A stretch of DNA of 23,296 bases, taken from a virus. The notes under the pieces are model-generated. The model was not told the origin of the DNA. It saw only the letters and a program-made list of their open reading frames with translations, and ran no database searches. The position numbers were made by a program, and so were the translations under genes. Positions 3,443 to 22,132 of the stretch are shown piece by piece. How positions within the stretch are numbered: position 1 is the stretch's first letter; every line of letters starts with the position of its first letter. The stretch is taken from positions 1 through 23,296 of the IMG/VR virus record IMGVR_UViG_3300049596_000906; one strand, written 5' to 3'.

Positions 3443-3470
3443 AAGTCAGGATTAAGTCCTGACTTTTTTG
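3443..3470 (+). terminator. Intrinsic terminator
   Basis: AAGTCAGGA (3443-3451), a 5-base loop, then TCCTGACTT (3457-3465) form a perfect 9-bp stem followed by a T run. It closes the 3171 transcription unit. Confidence 0.85.
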
Positions 3471-3480
3471 TTTTCTATGG

Positions 3481-3487
3481 TATTTAT
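3481..3487 (+). promoter_or_regulatory. TATTTAT element before the 3492 operon
   Basis: TATTTAT ends 4 bases before ATG 3492 and lies straight after the terminator of the previous gene, so a new promoter is expected here. Confidence 0.45.
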
Positions 3488-3491
3488 TATT

Positions 3492-4721
3492 ATGGAATTT
3501 AAAAAGGAGGATTTAGTAATATCCGAAGATAAAAGCGAAGAAGGGATATTAAAAAAAATATTATCCAAGTTTAAAGATATTAAAAATAGAGCTAAGTCTG
3601 AAATAGAGGAGACTAAGGCTTTAGCCCGAATATTAACCTATGCGGTAAAGTCATATGTAAAAAATAGAGATTTTGACTTAGACAAAAAAGATATTGAGTT
3701 TATTCAAGGACAATCAGGTGACGTTATTAAAAACTTACTAATGATTGTCATTTCAATAATCCCGATTCCAATACCCATTACTCCATTTTTAATTATATTC
3801 GGTAAAAAAATAGGAATTGACATTGTGCCAAAGGAACACAAAATCCCTGAGAAAGGAAAGAAAAAAGATAAAATTGAAGAATCAAATATGAAAATAATAA
3901 TAACAGAAAGACAATACAAAATATTAAACGAAAGTTTAGTGGATGATAAAGTGTTTAGAGATACTATTAAAAGTTTTGAATCGACAGTTACAAATTCTGT
4001 GGGTAGCCACTACACGTTTGATGATAAAGACCCAAAAAACCCTAAAACATTTATAAAGAGTAAATCACCATATGGTGGTGTTTTAACGATTGGTTGGGGA
4101 CATACAGGTACAGATGCAAAACCAGGTAATGCTATATCTAATAAAAAGGCTGAGGAACTATTAAGTAAGGATATTTCAAACGAGGAAGGAAAGGCTAAAA
4201 AACTATTCCCAAAATACGACACATACCCGCTATATGTTCAAAGAGCTCTTACAAATTCAGTTTATAGGGGAGAAGCTAAAAGTGGATATGAGTGGGTAAA
4301 AAATATTAATTTAGGTAAATGGAACTTAGCGGCTGAAAAGTATTTAGAAGGTTGGGATATTGATTTCTCAAAGGCTGATGATCCAAGAATGAAGGGATCA
4401 GTGGCTCAAAGGATGAAATCAAATCAAAGTGCTCTTTTAAAATATGATGATGAGTTAAAAAGTGGAACCACACCAAAACCTAAAACAACAGAGTCAAAAC
4501 CTAAACCAACCACACCAAAACCATCTAATTGGATGGATTCAATGATAAGTAATCTTGAAAAAATAACTAAACCTTTAATAACATACACCGTTAAATCTGG
4601 TGATACTTTATCTAAAATTGCTGCTAAATACGACAAAACGATAACCGTTGACAGTATAAAAAAATTAAATGGATTAAAATCTGATAGTATCAGTGCGGGA
4701 CAAAAATTAAGAATTAAATGA
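3492..4721 (+). CDS. LETM1-like domain / tag / T4-type lysozyme / LysM fusion
   Basis: A 409-residue protein. Residues about 40-120 resemble the LETM1-like ribosome-binding domain (ETKALARILTYAV..., a hydrophobic stretch with IPIPIPITPF, then IPKEH-type VPKEH). A complete MKIIITERQYKILNES tag begins at Met133 (ATG 3888). It is followed by a T4-type (GH24) lysozyme domain, with candidate catalytic Glu163 and the TIGWGHT strand, which cuts peptidoglycan. After a Thr/Pro/Lys linker, the last 45 or so residues are a LysM peptidoglycan-binding repeat. The tag in mid-protein suggests fusion of a LETM1-like gene to a tagged lysozyme, or a second start at 3888. No signal peptide is seen. The start at 3492 follows a TATTTAT word; the ATG at 3477 is less likely. 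Confidence 0.85.
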   Translation: MEFKKEDLVISEDKSEEGILKKILSKFKDIKNRAKSEIEETKALARILTYAVKSYVKNRDFDLDKKDIEFIQGQSGDVIKNLLMIVISIIPIPIPITPFLIIFGKKIGIDIVPKEHKIPEKGKKKDKIEESNMKIIITERQYKILNESLVDDKVFRDTIKSFESTVTNSVGSHYTFDDKDPKNPKTFIKSKSPYGGVLTIGWGHTGTDAKPGNAISNKKAEELLSKDISNEEGKAKKLFPKYDTYPLYVQRALTNSVYRGEAKSGYEWVKNINLGKWNLAAEKYLEGWDIDFSKADDPRMKGSVAQRMKSNQSALLKYDDELKSGTTPKPKTTESKPKPTTPKPSNWMDSMISNLEKITKPLITYTVKSGDTLSKIAAKYDKTITVDSIKKLNGLKSDSISAGQKLRIK

Positions 4722-5290
4722 AAATAATTATAACCGAGGCACAATATAAAAGTTTAACTGAGGATAACCTTAGAGATTTTTTATTTTCATTTTGGGATAA
4801 TCAAAAAAAACAAGGACAAGAACCTTTTTTAGATGATATACTATATCACGTTACAGACATAAGAAAAGATAGTAGAGAGGATTATCAGAAGATTCGACCT
4901 ATTTGGTATGAATATAACGGAGGATATGAAAAAATACTTCAAGATGTAAGGGATAAAATAGAACACGGAGAATTTCATTTTAAAGGAGACGCCAACTTAG
5001 ATATGGTTATATTTGTTGATGAGGTGTATTCATACGGATTAAAAGGACAAGGAGGAATGGTTGATATTATTTGTAGGGTTGTTGGTGGTACTGTTGATGG
5101 GTATGTCCATAATGAAGAAACAGATATGATGGATATGGTACCAAATATGGATATATTTGAACAGTATAGTTTATTAGAATATGAATCAGGTGATCTTGTA
5201 CAATTTTTAACTGATGAAACCTATGGTTTCTTTTCAAACCTATTAAAAGATAGGTTAATACCAATACACGTTGATTTAATGGTAAGATAA
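4718..5290 (+). CDS. Tagged unknown protein, paralogue of the 5290 gene
   Basis: A 190-residue protein beginning MKIIITEAQYKSLTED, so the tag ends in Leu-Thr-Glu at residues 13-15. The body is acidic. It has a pattern (FLFSFWDN ... WYEYNGGYEKIL ... FHFKGDANLDMVIF) that also occurs in the next protein (LFKIWQSE ... YRDFLGGWDKMI ... YDFRGGYDFRF), so the two arose by duplication. It overlaps the lysozyme gene by ATGA and touches the next start at 5290, giving tight translational coupling. No function can be assigned; capsid cargo is the hypothesis. Confidence 0.8.
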   Translation: MKIIITEAQYKSLTEDNLRDFLFSFWDNQKKQGQEPFLDDILYHVTDIRKDSREDYQKIRPIWYEYNGGYEKILQDVRDKIEHGEFHFKGDANLDMVIFVDEVYSYGLKGQGGMVDIICRVVGGTVDGYVHNEETDMMDMVPNMDIFEQYSLLEYESGDLVQFLTDETYGFFSNLLKDRLIPIHVDLMVR

Positions 5291-5847
5291 TGAAAATAAT
5301 AATTACAGAATCACAATATAGAATTTTAGAAAATTACACCCAAGAAGATGAGGTGGCTAAAAATATATTATTTAAGATTTGGCAAAGTGAACTTGATAGT
5401 AGCGGTGAAATAGATTTTAACCCTAACGTTGTTGATTATATTAATTATAAACCACAAGGTAGGTTAGAAATTTATGAAATGTATAGGGATTTTCTTGGTG
5501 GTTGGGATAAGATGATTGAAAAGTCATATGAACTTATGGATAAAACTTTTGATACAATGGATTATGATTTTAGAGGGGGGTATGATTTTAGATTTAAACC
5601 CCAATTAGATGATTCTTATGAAGAAGATAATACGTTTTTTGTTAATTGTCCTGTTGAAAGTGATGGTAAAGTGACTTTAATGACTAATATGGAAACCCAC
5701 TATTTAAAAGATTTAGAAAAAAATGAAGATTTGTGGTGGGAAATTGAAAGTGAAATTGGGGGAGTAATTGATGATATCTTATATAGAGAAGTAACAAAGA
5801 AAACAGGAATAATGGTTGATGTAAATGTGTGTTGGATAAAGGAATGA
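5290..5847 (+). CDS. Tagged unknown protein, paralogue of the 4718 gene
   Basis: A 185-residue protein beginning MKIIITESQYRILENY, with Ile-Leu-Glu at residues 12-14 at the end of the tag. The body aligns by eye with the 4718 product over about 80 residues and then diverges. Start and stop overlap both neighbours (TAATG and ATGA), so it belongs to one polycistronic message from 3492 to 6853. Unknown function. Confidence 0.8.
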   Translation: MKIIITESQYRILENYTQEDEVAKNILFKIWQSELDSSGEIDFNPNVVDYINYKPQGRLEIYEMYRDFLGGWDKMIEKSYELMDKTFDTMDYDFRGGYDFRFKPQLDDSYEEDNTFFVNCPVESDGKVTLMTNMETHYLKDLEKNEDLWWEIESEIGGVIDDILYREVTKKTGIMVDVNVCWIKE

Positions 5848-6239
5848 AAATAATAATAACAGAGAATCAGTATAAAATGTTGTTGGAGTCAAATACGGAG
5901 TCCATACAATCACTTATTGATATTGCTTTTCAATCATTAAAAGATGATAGTGATAATGGTTTATTTATTGACGGATATGTTGAAGATACTGTTTATGTCA
6001 CAGAAGAAATAAAAGTAGTTGACGTACAAAAGGTTACAGGAAAAGATTATCTAACGGGTAAAGAAAGTAGTCATTTGTTTGTTACCATTGATGTTTATGT
6101 AGAAACTATATTTAACAGTATGGATGTTGGTGAAATGGTATGGGAATTAGAAATGGATTGTGAAAAAATAGTTGGTAAAAATAATATCAGATTAAATCTT
6201 AGAGAGGTTATAAATACCAACACAAATAGACAGTGGTAA
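5844..6239 (+). CDS. Tagged unknown small protein
   Basis: A 131-residue protein beginning MKIIITENQYKMLLES; the tag ends LLE-S. I chose ATG 5844, not the GTG at 5829, because it forms the ATGA overlap and begins exactly at the tag. The body is an alternating strand/helix protein (VFVTIDVYVETIF... type) with no recognised family. The first 20 bases, ATGAAAATAATAATAACAGA, are identical to those at 3888 and 6239, which shows recent sharing of the tag DNA. Confidence 0.8.
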   Translation: MKIIITENQYKMLLESNTESIQSLIDIAFQSLKDDSDNGLFIDGYVEDTVYVTEEIKVVDVQKVTGKDYLTGKESSHLFVTIDVYVETIFNSMDVGEMVWELEMDCEKIVGKNNIRLNLREVINTNTNRQW

Positions 6240-6853
6240 TGAAAATAATAATAACAGAAGAACAATTTAATAAGTTACAAGAAAGTAATTTAGATTTTAA
6301 TAAGACAAAGACTCTTATTAATACTATGTATGATGATGGACAATCTATCGATGATATACTTAATTATACTGGTTTAGATAAAGGTGTAGTCATCATTTCA
6401 CTTTATGATCGTGAAATGATAAACGATAAAAAGACTGAATACGAAGATAAATATAATTTCCTGTATGAGTTACTTTGGAATAGTGGTTTAATAACCAAAG
6501 ATTATAACTACGAAGATGGATCAAGAGTTAGTATTACTAAAGATTGGGGGTCAGGAACACTTAACTTTAATTATAGATCAAAAGAAGGGTATGTGTTATC
6601 AGGAATGGCAACATTAATGTGGGATTCCGAAAATGGACTACCTATTGATATTTCTTATTTATATGGTTTAGATGGTACTGAGTATGATGTTGACGGAAAT
6701 GTTAGTTCAGTTAAGGACTTAAAAAATGATAATAAACTTAATAACATTAAAACATTGAGAGAGTTAATTGATTATTTTAATAATGATTATTATATTATGT
6801 TGAAAGAAGAATTGAATCCTTTGTTAGAAGAAGTGATAAATGACTATTTATAA
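6239..6853 (+). CDS. Tagged unknown protein
   Basis: A 204-residue protein beginning MKIIITEEQFNKLQES; the tag ends LQE-S. The ATG at 6239 overlaps the previous stop (TAATG) and is preferred to the GTG at 6233. Residues about 17-60 could be a small helix-turn-helix-like segment (QSIDDILNYTGLDKGVVIISL), reminiscent of Trp-repressor or sigma-4 type helices, but this is only a pattern. The middle part is strand-rich (GTLNFNYRSKEGYVLSGMATLMW). It is the last gene of the 3492 operon. Confidence 0.8.
   Translation: MKIIITEEQFNKLQESNLDFNKTKTLINTMYDDGQSIDDILNYTGLDKGVVIISLYDREMINDKKTEYEDKYNFLYELLWNSGLITKDYNYEDGSRVSITKDWGSGTLNFNYRSKEGYVLSGMATLMWDSENGLPIDISYLYGLDGTEYDVDGNVSSVKDLKNDNKLNNIKTLRELIDYFNNDYYIMLKEELNPLLEEVINDYL
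6845..6851 (+). promoter_or_regulatory. TATTTAT element before thioredoxin
   Basis: TATTTAT overlaps the last codons of the 6239 gene, 22 bases before ATG 6874. The spacing is longer than in the other cases, so this copy is less certain. Confidence 0.25.
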
Positions 6854-10751: not shown

Positions 10752-11342
10752 ATGAGACATATAATTAAAAAAATATTAAAAGAAGAGACCCAAAATATTG
10801 ATAGTTTTATTGATACCATTGAGGGTAAATACCCTGAAGTTTCGGAGTTCAAGGACGTTTTGATTTCATTTATTGAGGAATCGGATTGTCAAAAAATTGA
10901 ATTTGCAAATTTTAAATACGGGGCATTAGGAATGGCTTTACATAATGGGGTATTAATTAATAACATAGCATTGAATAATCGATTACCTATGTTAATATTC
11001 ATTATACTTCACGAAGTGGCTCACCAATACCAGTTTAAAAAGTATGGAGCTGATGAAATGTATAGATGTTATAGTGGTGAAGTAACAATAGATGAGGCTG
11101 CTGATTTTATGAGAAATACAGAAATTGTTGCTGATAAATATGCGGCATTAAAACTAAGACAACTTATTAAAAGTGGGTATATTGATTCGTCATTTGTTCC
11201 ACCACAAATGTACAAAAATGTACCTGTAGGACAAATAAAACAAATGATAGAACAATTTAAACATCAGTTTAGAATGAATAATGTTAAATCATCTGAAGAG
11301 ATATCTTCATTTATGTATAATATGATTAAAAGAGAATTATGA
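10752..11342 (+). CDS. Tagged zinc metallopeptidase
   Basis: A 196-residue protein. The tag MRHIIKKILKEE ends LKE at residues 9-11. HEVAHQ at residues 87-92 is the HExxH zinc motif (H87, E88, H91), and NTEIVADKYA at 122-131 supplies Glu124 as a likely third ligand, with the ExxAD pattern of gluzincin peptidases (as in M48 or ImmA/IrrE-type proteins). It should hydrolyse peptide bonds, with unknown targets. If the tag directs it into the head, it could act in head maturation or be injected with the DNA. The start at 10752 is preferred over the TTG at 10734 because the tag begins there. It overlaps the next gene by ATGA. Confidence 0.85.
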   Translation: MRHIIKKILKEETQNIDSFIDTIEGKYPEVSEFKDVLISFIEESDCQKIEFANFKYGALGMALHNGVLINNIALNNRLPMLIFIILHEVAHQYQFKKYGADEMYRCYSGEVTIDEAADFMRNTEIVADKYAALKLRQLIKSGYIDSSFVPPQMYKNVPVGQIKQMIEQFKHQFRMNNVKSSEEISSFMYNMIKREL

Positions 11343-11818
11343 AAGATTTGATACGACACATATTAAAAGAAGAAACCAAAGATTATAAATCGGTGGAAAA
11401 AGGTATTGACGTATGTATTAGTGTTGCCAACAAAACGTATCCATTTATTGTTGGTTGGGAAAAGGCTAATAATTGGGATAATACTAAATATTTTTTTTAT
11501 ATAGATTTAGTTGTGGATCATAAAAAAGTTAAAGAATATTATAACTTACCTTTCAGATCTTTTTACGAAAAATACCCTGAAGAGATTGAGAAACTTATTA
11601 AAAATAAAACAAATCTTGCTTTTCCAACAAGTATGTTAGACTATGGATTAAACGATGATCAATATGATATATCAAAAAAAATAAAAGAAACGGTTGAAGA
11701 TTCGTACGAATTAATACCTAATGAATATAAAATGATGTACCAAGCTGAAGGTTATTTCGGAGAAACTGAACGATACTATCCAAAAGAAATTAATATTTCA
11801 TATTTTATATTTGTTTAA
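11339..11818 (+). CDS. Tagged unknown protein
   Basis: A 159-residue protein beginning MKDLIRHILKEETKD; the tag ends LKE. The body has a strand-rich first half (VCISVANKTYPFIVGWEKAN, YFFYIDLVVDHKKV) and a helical, charged second half. No family is recognised. It is coupled to both neighbours (ATGA at 11339 and TAATG at 11818). Confidence 0.8.
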   Translation: MKDLIRHILKEETKDYKSVEKGIDVCISVANKTYPFIVGWEKANNWDNTKYFFYIDLVVDHKKVKEYYNLPFRSFYEKYPEEIEKLIKNKTNLAFPTSMLDYGLNDDQYDISKKIKETVEDSYELIPNEYKMMYQAEGYFGETERYYPKEINISYFIFV

Positions 11819-12360
11819 TGAGACATATAATTAAAAAAATATTAAAGGAGGAGACTAAAGGTAATAATTTAGATATTATTAATTTAATAAAAACGGATGG
11901 ATTGTTTTATGCGGCAAAATTGGTTGGGGGATTAGACAACTTAAAAGGGATTTTTAAAGATGACCCCGAAATGGTTGAAAGAATTGAAAAACAGAAAGGT
12001 TTAGTTAAAGTATCTTGGACAACGGATGGGGACGAACCATCAATTGTTTTACCATTTAAAACTATTGATGCCGAATGGAATATATGGATGACTAATAGTT
12101 GGCCAATAGTTAATATTATTTATAATGAAAATAAATTAACTAAAGATGAGGATTATAAATTTAAAGATTTTTTATATGATTCTTTTAATGTTGAGGCTTC
12201 AGTAAGAGTTCTTGAACTTAATAGTGATGAACTTAGAATGCATCAAACCTATGTTCAGTTGGGGGAAATAAACGGAAAAACTATACAACAACCAAGTAAC
12301 CCAAGTCGTATTTATGATATGTCTGACATTTGGGGTATAGTAGAAACATTAAAAGCATAA
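11818..12360 (+). CDS. Tagged protein with LVGG module
   Basis: A 180-residue protein beginning MRHIIKKILKEETKG. The first 29 bases of the gene are identical to those of 10752, although the bodies are unrelated. After the tag comes AAKLVGGLDNLKGI, a module shared with the 9532 product. The rest is a strand-rich domain (GLVKVSWTTDGDEPSIVLPF) and a C-terminal part with no recognised motif. Unknown function. Confidence 0.8.
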   Translation: MRHIIKKILKEETKGNNLDIINLIKTDGLFYAAKLVGGLDNLKGIFKDDPEMVERIEKQKGLVKVSWTTDGDEPSIVLPFKTIDAEWNIWMTNSWPIVNIIYNENKLTKDEDYKFKDFLYDSFNVEASVRVLELNSDELRMHQTYVQLGEINGKTIQQPSNPSRIYDMSDIWGIVETLKA

Positions 12361-12362
12361 TA

Positions 12363-14291
12363 ATGAGAGGACTTATTAAACACATATTAAAGGAAGAAAC
12401 TAACAAATTTGAGTTAGTTAAGAATCTTATATACACTATGTTTGATAATGTTAGTTTTATAGAATACGTTACCAAAAGAAATGAGGTTATGATATATTAT
12501 ACTAATCGTGATAACCGACAAATGTTAATACCCACCGAAATATGTGATATGATTAGTCAATATACGGGTTTAGATGTTGTTCCTTGGCATGAGGATAGAG
12601 AACACGATAACCAACCCGATTTTTATATTGATACTGAGGAATACGAAGAAGAACTTAATGAAAATATCAAAGAAACACCCAAAGAAATAGAAAGAAATCT
12701 AAATGTTATAAGAACCATAATAAAACAAGTTAGTTGGGATGGTTTATGTGATATTTGGGTAGAATATAACAAGATGGACGGGGAATATGAAATACGTTCT
12801 AAATATGCAAATTTAGACTTCAATATTGACGACACGCAAAAAGAGTTAGAGTTTTTAGATAATACAATACGATCAATGGGAATACGTGTTTATATATACA
12901 CGCCGTGGTTTGTTGATAGTTGTGAGGATGAACCTGAATTTTTGAACGAATCTAAAAAAGAATCACAAAAAGAAATTATTGAAAAAGTATTAAATACTAT
13001 AGTATTACCTGAGTATGAGCACGTTATTTGTGGGTTTGAAGTGAAAGAACCACACGAAAGGTTTGACACTTTGGGCAATACTCCATTTAAGTTTATAAGT
13101 GTTACAATAATATTTATTGGTGGACCTGGTACAAAACTTTGGCCACAAACTCAAGGGGTTCAAAGAATGTATGATGATGTAATGGATGAGGTTTGGGACG
13201 TGATTTATAATTACACAAATGAGGGGGTAGATGTATATCACAAAACCGTTAAAGATTGTGGAAAGAAAAACATATATCTTAGAGAGTCAAAAGAAAATTA
13301 TAGTCCTGCAGGAAAAGAAATAACGCCAAACAAAATTGTTATACATAAATCTAATCCAAAGGTTAGAGATAAAATATTAAATGAAGGGTTAAAAGTAAGG
13401 GCTGGAGAATGTTATAAAATATATGCAGGTTACGGAGAAAAATGTATACCAGCAATCTTTGCTACTAACTCAACAAATAAAAGAGCGTCGTTTGATTCTA
13501 CATACGATGACGATGTATGGGAAATTAATACTGAAATGATACCTGATGTTAAGTGGTACAAAGATAAACACTACGAATCAAGATCAAAACATATAGTGAC
13601 ATTTGAAAACATACCCGTAGATGCAATAACATTAAAGCGTGAAGGCACAGGTAAGGATTGGGGATTAATGGAATCAATTGACAAATCTGAAAATAATAAA
13701 CTTAAAATGGTTAAAGATTTAATACATACGCTTTTTGATGAGGTTAGTTTTATTAAAATTAAAAAATATGAAAATAAACCAATGATAATAGTTTATTTTG
13801 ATAACGATAAAGATTTTGGTAATGAAGAGACTTATTTTGCCGAACAAATACAACATGAAATATATGAATATACAGGCATTAAACTTCGTCCGTATTGGCA
13901 CCATGAACAGCATAACACTGATTCAGATTTTCGCTTGGATGCCATTAAACTAAAATACGATAATGAAGGAAATGTTATAAATGAATCAAAAGAAACTGAA
14001 CCAAAATATTTAAGTCTAATTGAAGAATTAGTTGAACCATTTAAAGATGAGGAGGGTGTCTGTGATATAAATGTTTCATACGACGATGAGGATGATATGT
14101 ATACGGCATATCTTGTTATTGGAACAGAAGAAATGAATGAAAAGTTTATTTATGTTCCTGCTATGCAGAGTCACATTTCAAAATTAAGAATGGAGGTTAA
14201 AAACACCATCAAACAATATATACCAATAGATAATTTGTATGTTGGATCATACGGCAAACCAAATTGCGAATGGGATCCAATTAGTAAGTAA
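12363..14291 (+). CDS. Tagged multi-module protein, possible polyprotein with ADP-ribosyltransferase-like module
   Basis: A 642-residue protein. The tag MRGLIKHILKEE (LKE at 9-11) is followed by six modules separated by (L/I)xE: A 12-100 (ends LNE-N), B 101-196 (LNE-S), C 197-308 (LRE-S), D 309-437 (LME-S), A' 438-541 (INE-S), B' 542-642. A and A' are clear duplicates (VKNLIYTMFDNVSFI against VKDLIHTLFDEVSFI), and B and B' share a weaker pattern (GLCDIWVEY against GVCDINVSY). Module D has H328 in VIHKSNPKVRDKILNEGL, then YKIYAGYG and a later WEINTE. This resembles ADP-ribosyltransferase-fold proteins of the DarT/Tpt1 kind, at modest confidence. The start at 12363 is three bases past the previous stop; the upstream GTG at 12330 is less likely. 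Confidence 0.85.
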   Translation: MRGLIKHILKEETNKFELVKNLIYTMFDNVSFIEYVTKRNEVMIYYTNRDNRQMLIPTEICDMISQYTGLDVVPWHEDREHDNQPDFYIDTEEYEEELNENIKETPKEIERNLNVIRTIIKQVSWDGLCDIWVEYNKMDGEYEIRSKYANLDFNIDDTQKELEFLDNTIRSMGIRVYIYTPWFVDSCEDEPEFLNESKKESQKEIIEKVLNTIVLPEYEHVICGFEVKEPHERFDTLGNTPFKFISVTIIFIGGPGTKLWPQTQGVQRMYDDVMDEVWDVIYNYTNEGVDVYHKTVKDCGKKNIYLRESKENYSPAGKEITPNKIVIHKSNPKVRDKILNEGLKVRAGECYKIYAGYGEKCIPAIFATNSTNKRASFDSTYDDDVWEINTEMIPDVKWYKDKHYESRSKHIVTFENIPVDAITLKREGTGKDWGLMESIDKSENNKLKMVKDLIHTLFDEVSFIKIKKYENKPMIIVYFDNDKDFGNEETYFAEQIQHEIYEYTGIKLRPYWHHEQHNTDSDFRLDAIKLKYDNEGNVINESKETEPKYLSLIEELVEPFKDEEGVCDINVSYDDEDDMYTAYLVIGTEEMNEKFIYVPAMQSHISKLRMEVKNTIKQYIPIDNLYVGSYGKPNCEWDPISK

Positions 14292-16661: not shown

Positions 16662-17342
16662 ATGAACTTACAAGAACAAATAAGAAGAATATTAAAGGAA
16701 GAAGAAAATAAATTTAATCCCGTACGGTTTTTTTATGAACAATATTTAAATCAACAACCATTATATTTTGAGGATTTAATGTTACATCCTACCTATGACG
16801 GAACTAAAATAATGTGGAATGTCGAAAACCCAAACGATAGATCATTTAATTACGGCGTTTTAGATGGAGTTATTGGTGATGAATTTAGAACTTTTTGTGC
16901 AATGATAAACGGAGATTATCAAAAATACGACAGGTTTGTTAGGGGTTTTTATGATAAACCAAGAGATAATTGTTATTTAAACGAAGGGGATACAAGTAAA
17001 ATCAATCAAATATTAAAAAATAAAAAGGAGTTTAGATGTGACACCCACAGTAATATGTTTTTTTTTAATTTAGATTATAAATCTTTCGAAATTAGTACAT
17101 ATTCAGACGAGATATCTTTTTATGGATATTTTAATTTTAATAAAATATACAAATACGATTCACATGGTGATAATGAAGAAATTATACCAAGACGTGAGTT
17201 TTTTGATAATCTTGATGAAGATAATCTTGATGATTGGAACGAAGGGTTATACTCATTTTTTGATGAAGTACTTTTAGTTTTAGCATCAAACACGGCGTTT
17301 TTTGACAAAGATTATGATTATTTTAATCTTTATTTAGAATGA
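16662..17342 (+). CDS. Tagged unknown protein
   Basis: A 226-residue protein beginning MNLQEQIRRILKEEE; the tag ends LKE. The body is rich in Phe, Tyr, Asn and Asp (FFFNLDYKSFEISTYSDEISFYGYFNF), with an internal LNE-G near residue 107. No family is recognised. It overlaps the next gene by ATGA, which starts the operon of tagged proteins running to 19780. Confidence 0.8.
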   Translation: MNLQEQIRRILKEEENKFNPVRFFYEQYLNQQPLYFEDLMLHPTYDGTKIMWNVENPNDRSFNYGVLDGVIGDEFRTFCAMINGDYQKYDRFVRGFYDKPRDNCYLNEGDTSKINQILKNKKEFRCDTHSNMFFFNLDYKSFEISTYSDEISFYGYFNFNKIYKYDSHGDNEEIIPRREFFDNLDEDNLDDWNEGLYSFFDEVLLVLASNTAFFDKDYDYFNLYLE

Positions 17343-17713
17343 AAAATTTAATTAGAAAGGTATTAAGGGAAGAGTTTAATGAATCAAAACGTATTAATAG
17401 TAATGAGACGTTCCAATACCTGATAGATATGGAAATGGAACGAATGAAAGAAATATGTTTTACACAGAGTGCAGAAGATACAACCGATATGGTTTCATTT
17501 GATGTATGTGATTTTTTAGAATACTCAAAACCACAAGTAGAAGTCACGGGGTTTGATTATCACAATGATAAGCCAGTAATAATTGTTAAAATTAAAGTTA
17601 GCACAAGCCAACTGTTTATGGATGAAGAATCATTTGTGGATGAGTTAGAAGGTAGACTAAGAAAGTGGATAGGTAATAACATAATAGAAGTTGAAGATAT
17701 ATATTTTATATGA
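17339..17713 (+). CDS. Tagged unknown small protein
   Basis: A 124-residue protein beginning MKNLIRKVLREEFNESK; the tag ends LRE, with a second FNE-S three residues on. The body has a helix, then strands (VEVTGFDYHNDKPVIIVKIKVS) and a helix with RLRKWIG, a small alpha/beta fold. It has the MKxLI-type tag although it lies between MNLQ-type genes, so tag type does not strictly follow position. Unknown function. Confidence 0.8.
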   Translation: MKNLIRKVLREEFNESKRINSNETFQYLIDMEMERMKEICFTQSAEDTTDMVSFDVCDFLEYSKPQVEVTGFDYHNDKPVIIVKIKVSTSQLFMDEESFVDELEGRLRKWIGNNIIEVEDIYFI

Positions 17714-18441
17714 ATTTACAAGAACAAATATCAAGAATACAATCAATGATGGGACTGAATGAAGTGTCAAACCCATATTCCATTACTTGGTTAGAACCAA
17801 CAAGAGAATACTTTACCCAAGAGTTAGATGAATTACTTGGGAATGCTATGAGGTTTAGCAAAGATGAATTCTTTCATCCACAAAATTACGATTTAATGTA
17901 TTCCATATTCCCACACACATTCAAAATGATTGCGGAACACGCAAAAGGAAGTGAAGTGGATAATGAGCAAGAAATTAAAGACATTCTATTAGATAAAGAA
18001 ATATCTGATTTAATGAATGATTGGGATGATTTTAGAAGAGTTCTATTAAAAGATGGGGAATCACAAATGGAAGGGTTTAATTTGTTTAATAAAGGAAGAA
18101 TGGAAGAATGGGGAGAGGAAAAAATAAACAGCACATATTATATGGGAAGATTCTCAAAAGTATTTCCATATAAATTTAAAGATACCACATCATCAGGATT
18201 AATTAAACAAATGACAAATGATGATGGAGAAGTTAACCCAAACCACAAAGGTTATGTTGATAATATAGAAAACTTAAGAAACGAAAACCATAGAGAACTT
18301 CCAGCACCATTTGTAATGAAACTACCAACAGGAGGAAGAGAAAAAAATGAATACACATTAATTGGTGGACACAAACGATCAACAGTAGCTGATCAACTAA
18401 ACATACCAATATCAGTTTGGTTTATAGATTTAACAGTATGA
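17710..18441 (+). CDS. Tagged protein with ParB-like C-terminal region
   Basis: A 243-residue protein beginning MNLQEQISRIQSMMGLNEV; the tag is longer and ends LNE-V at residues 16-18. The C-terminal part reads LPAPFVMKL...EYTLIGGHKRSTVADQLNIPISVWFIDL. This matches the ParB/sulfiredoxin-type fold, in which a GxH(K/R)R motif follows a Y-x-L-I strand. Those proteins use or hydrolyse nucleoside triphosphates, and some are nucleases or kinases. The helical middle (residues 60-150) is unassigned. It overlaps the next gene by ATGA. Confidence 0.8.
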   Translation: MNLQEQISRIQSMMGLNEVSNPYSITWLEPTREYFTQELDELLGNAMRFSKDEFFHPQNYDLMYSIFPHTFKMIAEHAKGSEVDNEQEIKDILLDKEISDLMNDWDDFRRVLLKDGESQMEGFNLFNKGRMEEWGEEKINSTYYMGRFSKVFPYKFKDTTSSGLIKQMTNDDGEVNPNHKGYVDNIENLRNENHRELPAPFVMKLPTGGREKNEYTLIGGHKRSTVADQLNIPISVWFIDLTV

Positions 18442-18845
18442 TACTACAAGAATCCATAAGAAAGGTATTAAAGGAATATTGGGAAAAGCCAAAACAAGAT
18501 AACACCGAAGTTGAAAAGACTATCAATAAGGTAATGTCAAAAAAGTTTTATTGGTGGAAAAATATAATAATAGAAGAGTTTTCTTATAGTGGAATAGAAC
18601 CACATTCTTTAACAATATATGGAACAATAGAAGTGGATGAAGAATGGGCATCAGAAAGATGGTCGGAAGTTTATGATTATACACCGTTTCCACAAACGTT
18701 CGATATGAGAAGGTTTGGTGATTTATTAACTCAGGAGTTTGCAAAAGAGTTATCCGACTTTATGACAATGTTACTTACATCAGTTACAGAATACTCCCCA
18801 ATAGATTATGTTAGAATGGGACCATTAAAAGTTAAATTTGTATAG
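18438..18845 (+). CDS. Tagged unknown small protein
   Basis: A 135-residue protein beginning MILQESIRKVLKEYWEK; the tag is a variant of MNLQEHI and ends LKE. The ATG at 18438 overlaps the previous stop and is chosen over the upstream frame extension at 18417. The body has strands (NIIIEEFSYSG, SLTIYGTIEVDEEW) followed by helices. No family is recognised. Confidence 0.8.
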   Translation: MILQESIRKVLKEYWEKPKQDNTEVEKTINKVMSKKFYWWKNIIIEEFSYSGIEPHSLTIYGTIEVDEEWASERWSEVYDYTPFPQTFDMRRFGDLLTQEFAKELSDFMTMLLTSVTEYSPIDYVRMGPLKVKFV

Positions 18846-18851
18846 ATTAAT

Positions 18852-19421
18852 ATGAACCTACAAGAACATATAAGAAAAATATTAAGGGAAGAACTTAATG
18901 AAGTTAGAGTTCCAAGAAGTGAAAGAGTGGAACTATATAAAGATGACAATATAATTGTTGTCGTTCCATTAACACATAGAGCATTACAAAAATACGCTCA
19001 CCAATGCCAGTGGTGTATTAATGATGATATTTATGAGTGGGAAGATTACCATAAAGGTAAACATGCAGTAATAATTCAAAGAAACCCAAAGAAACCAAAA
19101 ATAGGTATAACAGGAAATCCAACGGCATCGGAAATATTTTTATTAGCCAAATGGGATAACAATCAATCAAGTTTTGAAGATGTATGTCAGATGTTAGATT
19201 ATGAATTTAGGAATGATAGAACAATGTCTGATTATTATGTAACGATTTCAAACGATATAAATAACTTCGCCACCAACATAGTCTATTATTCACCTGAAAC
19301 AGGTATCTACGACCAAGAAGATAATTTCTTATGGAATTTTAATATAGAGATAAATGACATCCCGAATGTAAAACCTAAAGTCATTGAGATAATGGATGAT
19401 TATTTAACTGAAGAAGAATGA
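18852..19421 (+). CDS. Tagged unknown protein with WCI motif
   Basis: A 189-residue protein beginning MNLQEHIRKILREELNE; LRE ends the tag and LNE follows four residues on. The segment VVPLTHRALQKYAHQCQWCINDDIYEWEDY, with later HAVIIQRNP, recalls a pattern seen in other phage proteins in which a QWCI strand follows a helix. I cannot name a function for it. The C-terminal part ends DDYLTEEE. It overlaps the 19418 gene by ATGA. Confidence 0.8.
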   Translation: MNLQEHIRKILREELNEVRVPRSERVELYKDDNIIVVVPLTHRALQKYAHQCQWCINDDIYEWEDYHKGKHAVIIQRNPKKPKIGITGNPTASEIFLLAKWDNNQSSFEDVCQMLDYEFRNDRTMSDYYVTISNDINNFATNIVYYSPETGIYDQEDNFLWNFNIEINDIPNVKPKVIEIMDDYLTEEE

Positions 19422-19780
19422 ACCTACAAGAACACATAAGAAAAGTATTAAAGGAGGAAACGGAAGACATACCAAAAAGAACTCCATTAGAAAAATCAAT
19501 CACAGATTTTGTAAATATGTTATTGAAAGATTATGAACTACCTGAAAACTTTTATGGTGTTGCTGTGGATATAATTGATGATAATGAAACGTGTGAAATC
19601 ACCGCATTATTTAAAAAACCATTTACAATGGTAGAATCAGATAAATTACACAAAATACTAAAAAATATAAGAAAAGAAGTCCATAACTACTTCGGACTAC
19701 AATTTGATATGAAAGGGGGGTGTTCACACATAGATAGTTATAATCATTTTTACAAAAGATATTATCTACCAAGAAAGTAA
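19418..19780 (+). CDS. Tagged unknown small protein
   Basis: A 120-residue protein beginning MNLQEHIRKVLKEETED; the tag ends LKE. The body has a helix (SITDFVNMLLKDYELP), a strand pair (GVAVDIIDDNETCEITALF) and a helix, ending in a short basic tail. It is the last gene of the second tagged operon; a long non-coding region follows. Unknown function. Confidence 0.8.
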   Translation: MNLQEHIRKVLKEETEDIPKRTPLEKSITDFVNMLLKDYELPENFYGVAVDIIDDNETCEITALFKKPFTMVESDKLHKILKNIRKEVHNYFGLQFDMKGGCSHIDSYNHFYKRYYLPRK

Positions 19781-19867
19781 AAGAGTATAGATTTAATTTA
19801 CTCACTCATCTCTACCGTTCATTTCATTCACTACGTTCTTCGTTTCATAACTTAATCCTATACTCTT
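19781..19867. repeat. Inverted repeat AAGAGTATAG / CTATACTCTT
   Basis: Perfect 10-bp arms at 19781-19790 and 19858-19867 enclose 67 bases, directly after the last gene of the tagged operon. It could form a large stem-loop in the message end. Confidence 0.65.
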
Positions 19868-19873
19868 ATAGTG

Positions 19874-19929
19874 AACAAGAGTAGTAATTACCTACGTATT
19901 AAAAACAAGAGTAATCTTTACCTACGTAT
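19874..19929. repeat. Two 26-bp direct repeats, 30-bp period
   Basis: AACAAGAGTA ... ACCTACGTAT occurs at 19874-19899 and 19904-19929 with a few changes in the middle. Each copy contains ACCTACGTAT. The pair is iteron-like. Confidence 0.65.
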
Positions 19930-19936
19930 AATACTC

Positions 19937-19985
19937 TTATTGTAGAAAAATCACAATAAACGTATTATTGTAGAAATTCTACAAT
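19937..19985. repeat. TTATTGTAGAAA direct repeat and palindrome
   Basis: TTATTGTAGAAA occurs at 19937-19948 and 19965-19976. The second copy is part of a 19-base palindrome at 19967-19985, ATTGTAGAA-A-TTCTACAAT. This looks like a site for a dimeric DNA-binding protein. Confidence 0.6.
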
Positions 19986-20064
19986 GATAAACATTACATA
20001 TCTATAAAGGATATGTGGTAATTAATGGGACATACCTTAAATCATAATGTAAAAAGTATTTTCC

Positions 20065-20151
20065 CCCATTTAATGGGTGGTTTAATAAGATGTCTCCATC
20101 AGTAATTAATAGAATGTCCCCCATTACTTAGGGGATAATTACATAAGATGT
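20065..20151. repeat. C-rich hairpins and ATAAGATGT repeats
   Basis: CCCATT-T-AATGGG (20065-20077) and CCCC...GGGG (20119-20134) are small inverted repeats. Between and after them are ATAAGATGT (20085-20093), ATAGAATGT (20109-20117) and ATAAGATGT (20143-20151). Confidence 0.5.
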
Positions 20152-20283
20152 TTATGTATGTTCAAGATTATATTCATTTAAATATAACTTCGTTAAAACA
20201 ATATGAATTGTATGTAGGAACATATAGATGAGGTGGTATACTAATGGACTGTCATGTTCATTTACATATAATGTGGGGGATGG

Positions 20284-20323
20284 GCAAATATACGGTAAAC
20301 GTTTACATCTACCGTATATTTGC
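20284..20323. repeat. Perfect 14-bp inverted repeat with outward -7 boxes
   Basis: GCAAATATACGGTA (20284-20297) and TACCGTATATTTGC (20310-20323) are exact complements around 12 bases. Across the left arm and loop lies a second palindrome, GTAAACGTTTAC (20295-20306). Each arm carries TATATTTG reading outward, on the minus strand at left and the plus strand at right, which fits the Bacteroidota -7 box. No -33 box is evident. Confidence 0.7.
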
Positions 20324-20376
20324 GTATGAGAAGTCCCACTTATTACCACTATTATAATATCTTATCTAAGTGATCC

Positions 20377-20426
20377 TTTATACGTTGGGGGTATTATATG
20401 ACACATTTACCTGTTTTATACGTTGG
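20377..20426. repeat. Direct repeat TTTATACGTTGG
   Basis: The 12-base word is at 20377-20388 and 20415-20426, 38 bases apart. It may be an operator or phage-specific promoter word. Confidence 0.55.
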
Positions 20427-20510
20427 ATATACTTTAGGACTTCGTCTCCCGCACCCCTACAGTATAAGAACACTTTTTAGCTGGAAAATGTATATAGTAA
20501 AAAAAATAGT

Positions 20511-20539
20511 CCTACAGGTACCTACAGAGGGGTTTTTTT
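20511..20539. repeat. Tandem CCTACAG repeat followed by G4T7
   Basis: CCTACAGGTA and CCTACAGAGG lie head to tail at 20511-20530, with another CCTACAG at 20456-20462. GGGG and seven T follow (20529-20539). This could be a weak terminator, but I find no strong stem. Confidence 0.4.
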
Positions 20540-20775
20540 AGGGTACAGATAGCAAGAGGGGAATAAATGGTGTAAATAAGTGGGAATAATAGGTGGGAGA
20601 AAGTGGTAAAAGGGATTGTCCCCCGTGTAAAGCGTGACTGACATTTTGACAAAATCAAGAAAATTAACATAAAAAGTTATTAACAATATCCCCCTGTCAT
20701 AGTGTCCGATTGTCCACACGAGTAGTGTCAGGTACAATTTACTATTTATTTATCAACAAATACTTATTAACATTA

Positions 20776-21102
20776 ATGTATATGGAAGGTGTAGAGAAGT
20801 TTTTAAAGGAACAATTCATCCCCAAGGTGGTGGAAGATAAGATGGGAATCAAATGTTTATTTCAACATAAGGATAAGTTAGTAGAAGATGGGGTTGTATT
20901 TTTTGAGTTTGCTAAAAAGAAGTGGAGTAAGAAACCCATTATGTCTAATAGACAGTTTGTCATTGTGGATGCAGATATGACTGACGTGTTAACATTTCTA
21001 AATCAATATTACAACCTAACAGAAGAAGACTATGCAACAGTTAGAAAAGTAATCATAGACATGGGGGTAGAACATATAGAAAGGTTCTACGGTAATGATT
21101 AA
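20776..21102 (+). CDS. Unknown protein
   Basis: A 108-residue protein if it starts at ATG 20776; ATG 20782 would remove two residues, and a GTG at 20710 is less likely. It begins MYMEGVEKFLKEQFIPKV, a short helix with LKE at residues 10-12 that loosely resembles a tag end. The middle has DGVVFFEFAKKKW and QFVIVDADMTDVLTFLNQYYNL, suggesting an alpha/beta fold. The C-terminus is helical. It stands alone within a non-coding region. A TATTTAT word at 20743-20749 lies 26 bases upstream. Confidence 0.7.
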   Translation: MYMEGVEKFLKEQFIPKVVEDKMGIKCLFQHKDKLVEDGVVFFEFAKKKWSKKPIMSNRQFVIVDADMTDVLTFLNQYYNLTEEDYATVRKVIIDMGVEHIERFYGND

Positions 21103-21134
21103 CGTAACTGTTTATCTTTTTTAATTAATACATA

Positions 21135-21141
21135 TATTTAT
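21135..21141 (+). promoter_or_regulatory. TATTTAT element without a following gene
   Basis: A TATTTAT word after the 20776 gene with no start codon close by. It could begin the candidate RNA at 21147-21291. Confidence 0.25.
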
Positions 21142-21146
21142 ATTAG

Positions 21147-21291
21147 AATTCATTTTCCCCACAGCAGGGAGTTAGTTGTTCAGTCACCCAGGCGGTACGT
21201 AAAGTTCAAGATGAATTTAACAACACACATTCTGATGTCCCCCTGTTTATGGTGTCGTATACCGACACATAGTGGAGTGGGGAATTTTTTT
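21147..21291 (+). ncRNA. Candidate structured RNA ending in a terminator
   Basis: AATTCATTTT (21147-21156) can pair with AAGATGAATT (21208-21217) with one G-U pair, and TCCC...GGGA forms a small hairpin inside. A strong terminator closes the stretch at 21239-21291. No protein frame fits. It may be a real small RNA or the structured tail of the 20776 message. Confidence 0.35.
21239..21291 (+). terminator. Branched intrinsic terminator
   Basis: GTGTCG (21252-21257) and CGACAC (21263-21268) form an inner stem, an outer CCCC (from 21239) can pair with GGGG (21279-21282), and seven T follow (21285-21291). It separates the DNA upstream from a new promoter at 21304. Confidence 0.65.
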
Positions 21292-21303
21292 ATGCCTAAT
21301 TGT

Positions 21304-21334
21304 TTTGCCAAGTAAATTATTATTCTTATCTTTG
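21304..21334 (+). promoter_or_regulatory. Bacteroidota-type promoter in non-coding DNA
   Basis: TTTG at 21304-21307, a 19-base spacer and TATCTTTG at 21327-21334 fit the consensus as well as the promoter of the DUF932 gene. There is no protein gene close downstream, so it probably makes an RNA. Confidence 0.65.
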
Positions 21335-21340
21335 AGTATT

Positions 21341-21480
21341 GGTTTGGGGGTTACACCTCTGACGACTACTCTGAAAAATGAGAAGCAAGTAGACTCCAAC
21401 CTGCTTCTATATTTTCCCCATACTAAACTATAAGGTAGGCTGGAGTCTACCCTCTTAAAGAAGAACTTGTTTCTCTGACC
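21341..21480 (+). ncRNA. Candidate small RNA with long imperfect helix
   Basis: The predicted transcript begins near 21341. GAGAAGCAAG (21380-21389) pairs with CTTGTTTCTC (21466-21475), with one G-U pair. Directly inside, TAGACTCCAACCT (21390-21402) pairs with AGGCTGGAGTCTA (21437-21449) with one mismatch, and the helix can run on for four more pairs. A 16-base bulge lies on the 3' side and a 26-base loop at the tip. A local GAAGCA/TGCTTC hairpin is an alternative fold, so the RNA might switch. I find no terminator and cannot fix the 3' end. I do not recognise the family. Confidence 0.5.
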
Positions 21481-21544
21481 CGTCTCGAACTTAATCATTG
21501 ACAAGTCAAAGGTACGGATTATATATGAGACTTCCTAACGGTCG

Positions 21545-21776
21545 GGTAAATTTATTTACCACTACCAAACAATCCCCCATATATATTATAGGAGTTATTA
21601 ACAATGTCATTGTGTCAGTTAATAACTTAGGGTTCCATGTCTACCCCCCTCTTATCTTTGTCATACCCCCTCCTCCTCATTTATTGGGGTCCCCTCCCCC
21701 CGTATCCTCCCTTTATATGACAAGTTGTCAGGTGTCAAAAGGGGGGTCAATCCCTCTTGCAGAGTATATATTATAA
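21545..21776. other. Non-coding stretch with inverted repeats and a pyrimidine tract
   Basis: No credible gene is present. GGTAAAT-TT-ATTTACC lies at 21545-21560. GTTATTAAC (21594-21602) is inverted at 21618-21626 around 15 bases and includes the word TTATTAACA. A TATCTTTG box is at 21653-21660 without a clear -33. From 21641 to 21718 the plus strand is very rich in C and T. Confidence 0.5.
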
Positions 21777-21783
21777 AAAACAT

Positions 21784-21845
21784 TATACCCCCCTATATGA
21801 TAAAAAAAATTCTGGAAAAATTTTATGGAAAATCGGAGTATTTAT
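21784..21845 (+). promoter_or_regulatory. Upstream element A, repeated before the HNH gene
   Basis: TATACCCC, a short spacer, an A run, TT-C-GAAAA, TTTT, and TATTTAT (21839-21845) occur in this order. The same order occurs at 22212-22271. It ends 17 bases before ATG 21863. It is probably a promoter with an A-rich upstream region. Confidence 0.5.
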
Positions 21846-21862
21846 AATTAAAATAATATATT

Positions 21863-22132
21863 ATGAGAAATAGATTAACAGAGTCAGATATTAACCGTAT
21901 AGTAAGGCGTGTAATTAGTGAACAAGAAAATACACTTAGAGTTAAAATAACTAAAGTAACAAAGCCAACATCTTGGTATAAAAACCTTATGGGTAAAGAA
22001 TTTACGGTATATAGTGATGTTGTAAATGATGATTTTTATGAAGTAATATTTTCAGATGAAGAAAAAAAATCAATCCCAAATACTGATAGACTTCATGTAA
22101 TTAAAATAAGTGATTGTGAAGTTGTTAAATAG
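21863..22132 (+). CDS. Tagged small SH3-like protein
   Basis: An 89-residue protein. Its N-terminus MRNRLTESDINRIVRRVISEQ is a fourth tag type and ends in Ile-Ser-Glu at residues 18-20. The body (VKITKVTKPTSWYKNLMGKEFTVYSDVVNDDFYEVI) matches a pattern seen in small phage and plasmid proteins: a strand, then a W-Y-x-N-x-x-G turn and a strand, as in SH3-like barrels. It is a stand-alone gene with element A upstream and a terminator downstream. Molecular role unknown. Confidence 0.8.
   Translation: MRNRLTESDINRIVRRVISEQENTLRVKITKVTKPTSWYKNLMGKEFTVYSDVVNDDFYEVIFSDEEKKSIPNTDRLHVIKISDCEVVK

Follow-up and report, generated by a model that had tools for sequence, protein, structure and literature searches.

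In phage T4, the prohead protease gp21 cleaves after L/I-X-E, and a stretch of 10 residues at the N-terminus of the internal protein IPIII is enough for targeting (PMC9026906). Other head proteins are cleaved several times, and most of the small fragments into which their scaffold or propeptide is cut are cleared (PMC9026906, PMC10052503). For polyvalent proteins, which occur in phages and conjugative elements, proteolytic release has been proposed, likened to that of polyproteins and attributed to embedded peptidase domains (PMC5512222). The open-access literature holds single cargo proteins with targeting sequences, propeptides and scaffold cleaved at several points, and polyvalent proteins that bring their own peptidases; a chain of cargo whose joints carry prohead-protease sites was not found there, most subscription papers lying outside this scope. 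A preliminary description of the present DNA knew of no phage cargo of such a form, and for phages the polyprotein principle itself may well be new.

Here, a chain of six modules behind a single tag is described in a 23,296-nucleotide stretch of viral DNA, referred to below as the window. The protein is likely a head-targeted polyprotein cargo precursor of a T4-like phage, from which the prohead protease would free the modules.

Architecture of the chain and its relatives

The 642-residue protein consists of an N-terminal tag ending in LKE, followed by six modules. IMG/VR was scanned using the complete protein and three of its modules (D, C and B) as queries, giving loci L002-L009 and L043-L110, whose numbers are used below to name homologues. 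The features are as follows:

11818..12360, + strand: separate tagged gene directly upstream of the chain, homologous to the module that opens longer chains such as L049
12363..14291, + strand: chain gene, ATG at 12363 and stop at 14291, 642 aa, N-terminus MRGLIKHILKEE
12363..12395, + strand: capsid-targeting-like N-terminal tag MRGLIKHILKE, residues 1-11, ending in LKE, assigned from its sequence; pLDDT <50 at 1-10
12396..12662, + strand: module A, residues 12-100, ending in LNE then N; homologous to A' and to modules in L045, L047, L049 and L098
12654..12662, + strand: junction site 1, LNE 98-100 then Asn; low-confidence linker 96-102
12663..12950, + strand: module B, residues 101-196, ending in LNE then S; homologues in L049, L057, L062, L071, L098, L105 and L107
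12942..12950, + strand: junction site 2, LNE 194-196 then Ser; low-confidence linker 191-199
12951..13286, + strand: module C, residues 197-308, ending in LRE then S; homologues in L045, L049, L071, L092 and L098
13278..13286, + strand: junction site 3, LRE 306-308 then Ser; low-confidence linker 306-313
13287..13673, + strand: module D, residues 309-437, predicted KptA/Tpt1-like ADP-ribosyltransferase fold (AF2, Foldseek, VIA-align; 49 loci)
13665..13673, + strand: junction site 4, LME 435-437 then Ser; low-confidence linker 432-441
13674..13985, + strand: module A', residues 438-541, ending in INE then S; homologous to A
13977..13985, + strand: junction site 5, INE 539-541 then Ser; low-confidence segment 541-545 overlaps the last residue of the site
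13986..14291, + strand: C-terminal module B', residues 542-642 plus stop, ending in WDPISK without the motif, from comparison with B' homologues
19418..19780, + strand: separate tagged gene MNLQEHIRKVLKEE..., with a homologue that includes the tag midway along the L092 chain

At its N-terminus the chain has a short putative propeptide ending in (L/I)xE. Tags similar to it occur on 17 of the 39 genes called in the window when a loose pattern is used. The same modules recur in about 40 related loci in some 20 different orders and numbers, with up to about nine modules behind one tag, as in these examples:

Window: A-B-C-D-A'-B'
L071: D-X-B-Y-C-B'
L045: A-D-C-(internal tag)-
L048: D-A-C-A'-B'
L049 (1057 aa): N-B-C-A-D-A'-B'-T-T
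L098 (cut by the contig end): A-B-B-C
L057: N-B-C-D-A'-B'-T

A search of a cultured phage collection with the whole chain protein gave no match, and such chains are real and widespread in uncultured T4-like phages. At 4001-4387 of L065, module D precedes a short tail whose tag is truncated (TLQESIRSY, then a stop), which looks like a chain that has lost its downstream modules.

Several other features of the window were noted. Three tag types (MKIIITExQ..., MxxLIKKILKEE and the one beginning MNLQEHIRKVLKEE) tend to cluster in runs of adjacent genes at 4718-6853 and 16662-19780. The gene at 3468-4721 encodes a phage lysozyme (PF00959) and LysM protein in which the complete tag MKIIITERQYKILNES follows an unrelated N-terminal domain; this may be a second chain, or its start codon may be wrong. 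A tagged protein at 10755-11342 carries HEVAHQ, a motif typical of metallopeptidases, without a Pfam hit, and is a candidate injected protease. The region 19800-22000 has few convincing genes and a G+C content above that of the rest of the window. The T4-type late promoter TATAAATA occurs 14 times in the window against 8.3 expected, which is not informative.

Exchange between tagged genes and chain modules

Genes that stand alone in one phage are chain modules in another. The product of 11818-12360 is 74% identical to residues 6-183 of the L049 chain over 178 residues (E=6e-84), and its homology to the first module of chains is also found by HMM (E=4e-48). Likewise, the product of 19418-19780 matches the L092 chain from residue 3 with 56% identity (E=8e-38). 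On account of these homologues, chain modules and tagged single genes can be regarded as one protein pool. Complete tags are also found within chains, namely LQESIRKVLREE followed by DYSPAG in L062, with the putative cut between them, and LKEHIKKVLKEET in L092. Comparison of the encoded proteins shows that chains evidently gain, lose and rearrange modules through in-frame fusion of tagged genes, after which the joined tag is usually reduced to a putative protease site.

The junction motif

The preliminary description placed (L/I)xE motifs at five module borders, and all five were confirmed (LNEN98, LNES194, LRES306, LMES435 and INES539). The bare motif [LI]xE is weak evidence by itself, since it is not enriched in the chain protein, with 13 copies outside the tag against a shuffle mean of 10.3 (P=0.22). 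The extended form [LI]xE[SN] is enriched (5 against a shuffle mean of 1.17, P=0.006), and all 5 copies in the protein lie at the proposed module boundaries, with none elsewhere.

The relatives follow the same rule. Linkers of no more than 70 residues separate recognised neighbouring modules in 64 distinct cases, of which 54 contain [LIM]xE[SN] and 10 lack the strict motif. Since the chains share descent, neither these nor the other junction counts given below are independent. With core boundaries initially drawn from the window's own modules, the density of [LIM]xE[SN] is 2.59 per 100 residues across all linkers and 0.083 in cores, a difference of about 31-fold. In a further test, the ends of BLAST alignments were the sole definition of module borders; in 82 of 338 cases [LI]xE[SN] fell at such a homology breakpoint, against 39.8±5.5 by circular shifting (z=7.6). 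Controls with [LI]xE before other residues (z=1.0) and with [LI]x[DKNQ][SN] (z=0.1) were unenriched. A control with a charged P3, [KRDENS]xE[SN], likewise showed enrichment close to breakpoints (z=5.1), probably because the linkers are rich in E and S.

The motif also depends on the position of a module, being usually lost once the module becomes the last in its chain. B' ends in (L/I/M)NE then S in 8/8 internal copies and in 0/3 C-terminal copies, that of the window among the three, and the strict motif follows D in 18/26 internal but 1/11 terminal cases. At P2, Asn occupies 39/57 junctions, compared with 6/112 of the [LIM]xE within cores, giving the junction consensus (L/I)NE then S; Met is at P3 in 9/57 junctions, which falls outside the T4 rule. 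Glu at P1 is encoded by 47 GAA and 10 GAG, Ser at P1' by both TCN and AGT, and P3 by eight codons, and this variety indicates that the residues, and not just the DNA, have been kept. The P1' residue differs by site: it is Ser or Asn at junctions, and mostly Glu behind N-terminal tags or, in the capsid protein, Ala. A helix N-cap role for the Ser/Asn was considered and ruled out, as D starts with a strand yet keeps its site; it is also contradicted by the predicted helices, which start about five residues after the Ser/Asn.

These patterns bear on the possibility that the chain is packaged with only its N-terminal tag removed and that its modules act as one polyvalent protein, the motifs being remnants of fused tags. 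We regard this as unlikely. The complete internal tags show that fusion of tagged genes happens, but most junctions retain only the protease-site residues, the tag helix being gone, and these residues persist despite synonymous codon change and length changes after D. The site is, moreover, lost in C-terminal modules. Uncut multidomain effectors do have a precedent in polyvalent proteins from phages and plasmids, which combine 2-15 domains and of which some are packaged or transferred unprocessed (PMC5512222).

Predicted structure and relations among modules

For the full chain, AlphaFold2 with aligned collinear relatives (A7) as input produced a model with a mean pLDDT of 72 and a pTM of 0.28, in which the chain is predicted to consist of domains of fair confidence without a fixed mutual arrangement. 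The pLDDT falls below 50 at residues 1-10, 96-102, 191-199, 306-313, 432-441 and 541-545, with folded blocks between; four further segments below 50 fall within modules. The tag and all five sites therefore lie in or adjoin low-confidence linkers and are not predicted to be buried in one continuous domain, an outcome for which the preliminary description had proposed structure prediction as a check.

The duplications that it had proposed were borne out as well. A and A' share 35% identity over 85 residues (E=2e-14), and B and B', weakly similar in pairwise alignment, gain support when their profiles are compared (hhalign 74.9%, E=2.6e-5). Modules A, B, C, A' and B' are predicted to have one common order of helix-strand-strand-helix-strand, and D differs. 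Profiles of A, B and C did not match each other, so that common descent of the three is not shown by their shared predicted topology. Pfam and PHROG searches with single modules gave no confident hits, with nothing firm for A, B and C, and in Foldseek with the full chain only D had a convincing match, to KptA.

Module D alone was modelled by AF2 with a pLDDT of 81.6. It matches KptA in Foldseek (E=1.9e-5, prob 1.00) and the ADP-ribosyltransferase lobe of KptA/Tpt1 in VIA-align (Z 9.9, 87 residues, 2.3 Å). The best matches cover only about residues 77-180 of KptA, and D, at 129 residues, starts at the ADP-ribosyltransferase (ART) lobe. The N-terminal lobe of the two-lobed KptA/Tpt1 enzyme is absent, which makes a role as tRNA phosphotransferase unlikely. 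D is thus predicted to be a KptA-like ADP-ribosyltransferase fold, not necessarily an active transferase. A family search with D gave only a sub-threshold match to DUF5820, and no relatives were found in the bacterial and archaeal genomes searched. The IMG/VR scan contains 49 D-type loci, and in L079, L082-L084, L086, L088 and L090 the module forms a single tagged protein of 137 aa.

Prohead protease and capsid protein in relatives

The contig G003, which carries the L071 chain, has the gene order gp17, gp20, gp21, gp22, gp23. Its gp21 is a PF03420 prohead protease (E=5.6e-24); gp17, gp20 and gp22 are presumed names, given from sequence and gene order. Of 19 other contigs that carry D-type loci, 11 have both PF03420 and gp23; the rest, which may be fragments, have neither. 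At least five relatives (L045, L051, L056, L071 and L098) have a chain, PF03420 and gp23 on one contig. No protease hit was found on the window's own contig, a 23-kb fragment.

In 12/12 capsid proteins, positions 58-60 read INE or LNE with Ala or Ser next, and hence the inferred protease site of this clade shares the (I/L)NE form of the junctions. The predicted capsid site at residue 60 is near the location of the T4 gp23 cut, the propeptide of T4 gp23 being 65 residues long (PMC5694885). Two candidate protease sites of the same form lie in L018 (G003 100001-120000): LNE then S at residue 205 of the gene at 101153-101887, between portal and gp21, and INE then N at residue 24 of a scaffold-like gene at 103992-105440. 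Flavobacterium phage immuto has been cultured and is related by its capsid protein; the first 150 of its 160 kb showed no tag system.

The chain could instead be a cytoplasmic, non-virion multidomain protein, its tag and (L/I)xE sites serving another localisation or another protease, a reading that we hold to be improbable. Packaging is indeed putative, A, B and C could not be placed in a family with confidence, and the tag system was not seen in immuto, but the junction consensus matches the predicted site of the capsid protein itself, Asn at P2 included, and a T4-type protease lies on the same contigs as the chains.

Proposed mechanism and its meaning

That the pattern is functionless, [LI]xE being frequent in a protein rich in E, L and I and the linkers being rich in E and S, is highly improbable and, given the reshuffled relatives, strongly disfavoured: chance explains the bare [LI]xE of the chain protein (P=0.22), and the enriched [KRDENS]xE[SN] control (z=5.1) speaks for composition, but for [LI]xE[SN] at junctions it is rejected by the shuffles and the breakpoint test, and the unenriched controls with a hydrophobic P3 but altered P1 or P1', the 54/64 linkers, the roughly 31-fold density and the preference for Asn at P2 stand against it.

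The reading of the chain as a head-targeted precursor was anticipated in the preliminary description, in which one tag carries several cargo domains that the protease frees. It is supported by the roughly 20 reshuffled architectures with the motif at their joints, by internal tags and stand-alone tagged counterparts, and by the T4-type protease and capsid site of the relatives; head entry, actual cutting and the fate of the pieces are what we infer from these observations. The amphipathic N-terminal tag would bring the whole chain into the prohead core, like the targeting sequence of T4 internal proteins. A gp21-type prohead protease would then cut after Glu, at the end of the tag and at each (L/I/M)xE|(S/N) junction. 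Six small proteins would thereby be freed in the head, one with a predicted KptA-like ADP-ribosyltransferase fold and five with a predicted alpha-beta-beta-alpha-beta fold. By analogy with T4 IPI and Alt, the freed proteins may enter the host with the DNA and act as early effectors or in anti-defence, injection and module functions being suggested by this precedent.

On balance, we favour the broader view of a family of T4-like phages whose effectors are delivered as assortable polyproteins behind one capsid-targeting tag, cut in the prohead by the protease that matures the capsid, which would supply them in equal doses and allow new effectors to be added by in-frame fusion. If so, phages apply a polyprotein strategy to virion cargo, analogous to that of RNA viruses and tied to capsid maturation. 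The tag or junction site would then be a sequence rule for spotting injected proteins among the uncharacterised genes of uncultured T4-like phages, and the exact mature ends of each injected protein would be predictable. It would also offer a route to loading several proteins into phage heads at a fixed ratio.

Comparison with known systems

The chain resembles T4 IPI, IPII, IPIII and Alt in its short N-terminal propeptide ending in L/I-X-E and its diverse small cargo, and, as in the T4 internal-protein system, a gp21-type protease and gp23 capsid protein occur in the same phages, here the relatives. No sequence relation of the chain to the T4 internal proteins was found. Alt is an ADP-ribosyltransferase, and module D shares that fold, resembling KptA and not Alt/VIP2. 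T4 has one cargo per tag, whereas here the modules behind one tag number up to about nine and are joined at putative sites; with six modules behind its tag, the chain is a variant of T4-type capsid-targeted cargo and not a plain member.

Other ART families occur in polyvalent proteins. Described polyvalent proteins, like the chain, hold many domains per polypeptide in variable order and are presumed to be delivered into the host (PMC5512222). They differ in that the chain has a capsid-targeting-like tag and sites matching a head maturation protease that would act in trans; no peptidase domain was recognised within it. Domains of the described polyvalent set (for example MPTase, ParB-like, helicase-methylase) gave no confident Pfam or PHROG hits in the chain, in which D has the predicted ART fold.

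With T4 gp22, gp67 and gp68 and the long propeptides of phiKZ and SPN3US, the chain shares several prohead-protease sites per substrate, the cuts here being putative. Unlike in those proteins, the pieces between its sites are predicted folded domains. Finally, one precursor and a junction-specific virus protease, as proposed here, recall the polyproteins of eukaryotic RNA viruses, to which no homology is claimed; in contrast to these, the chain would belong to a DNA phage, as optional cargo that is shuffled freely and whose modules also exist as single genes.
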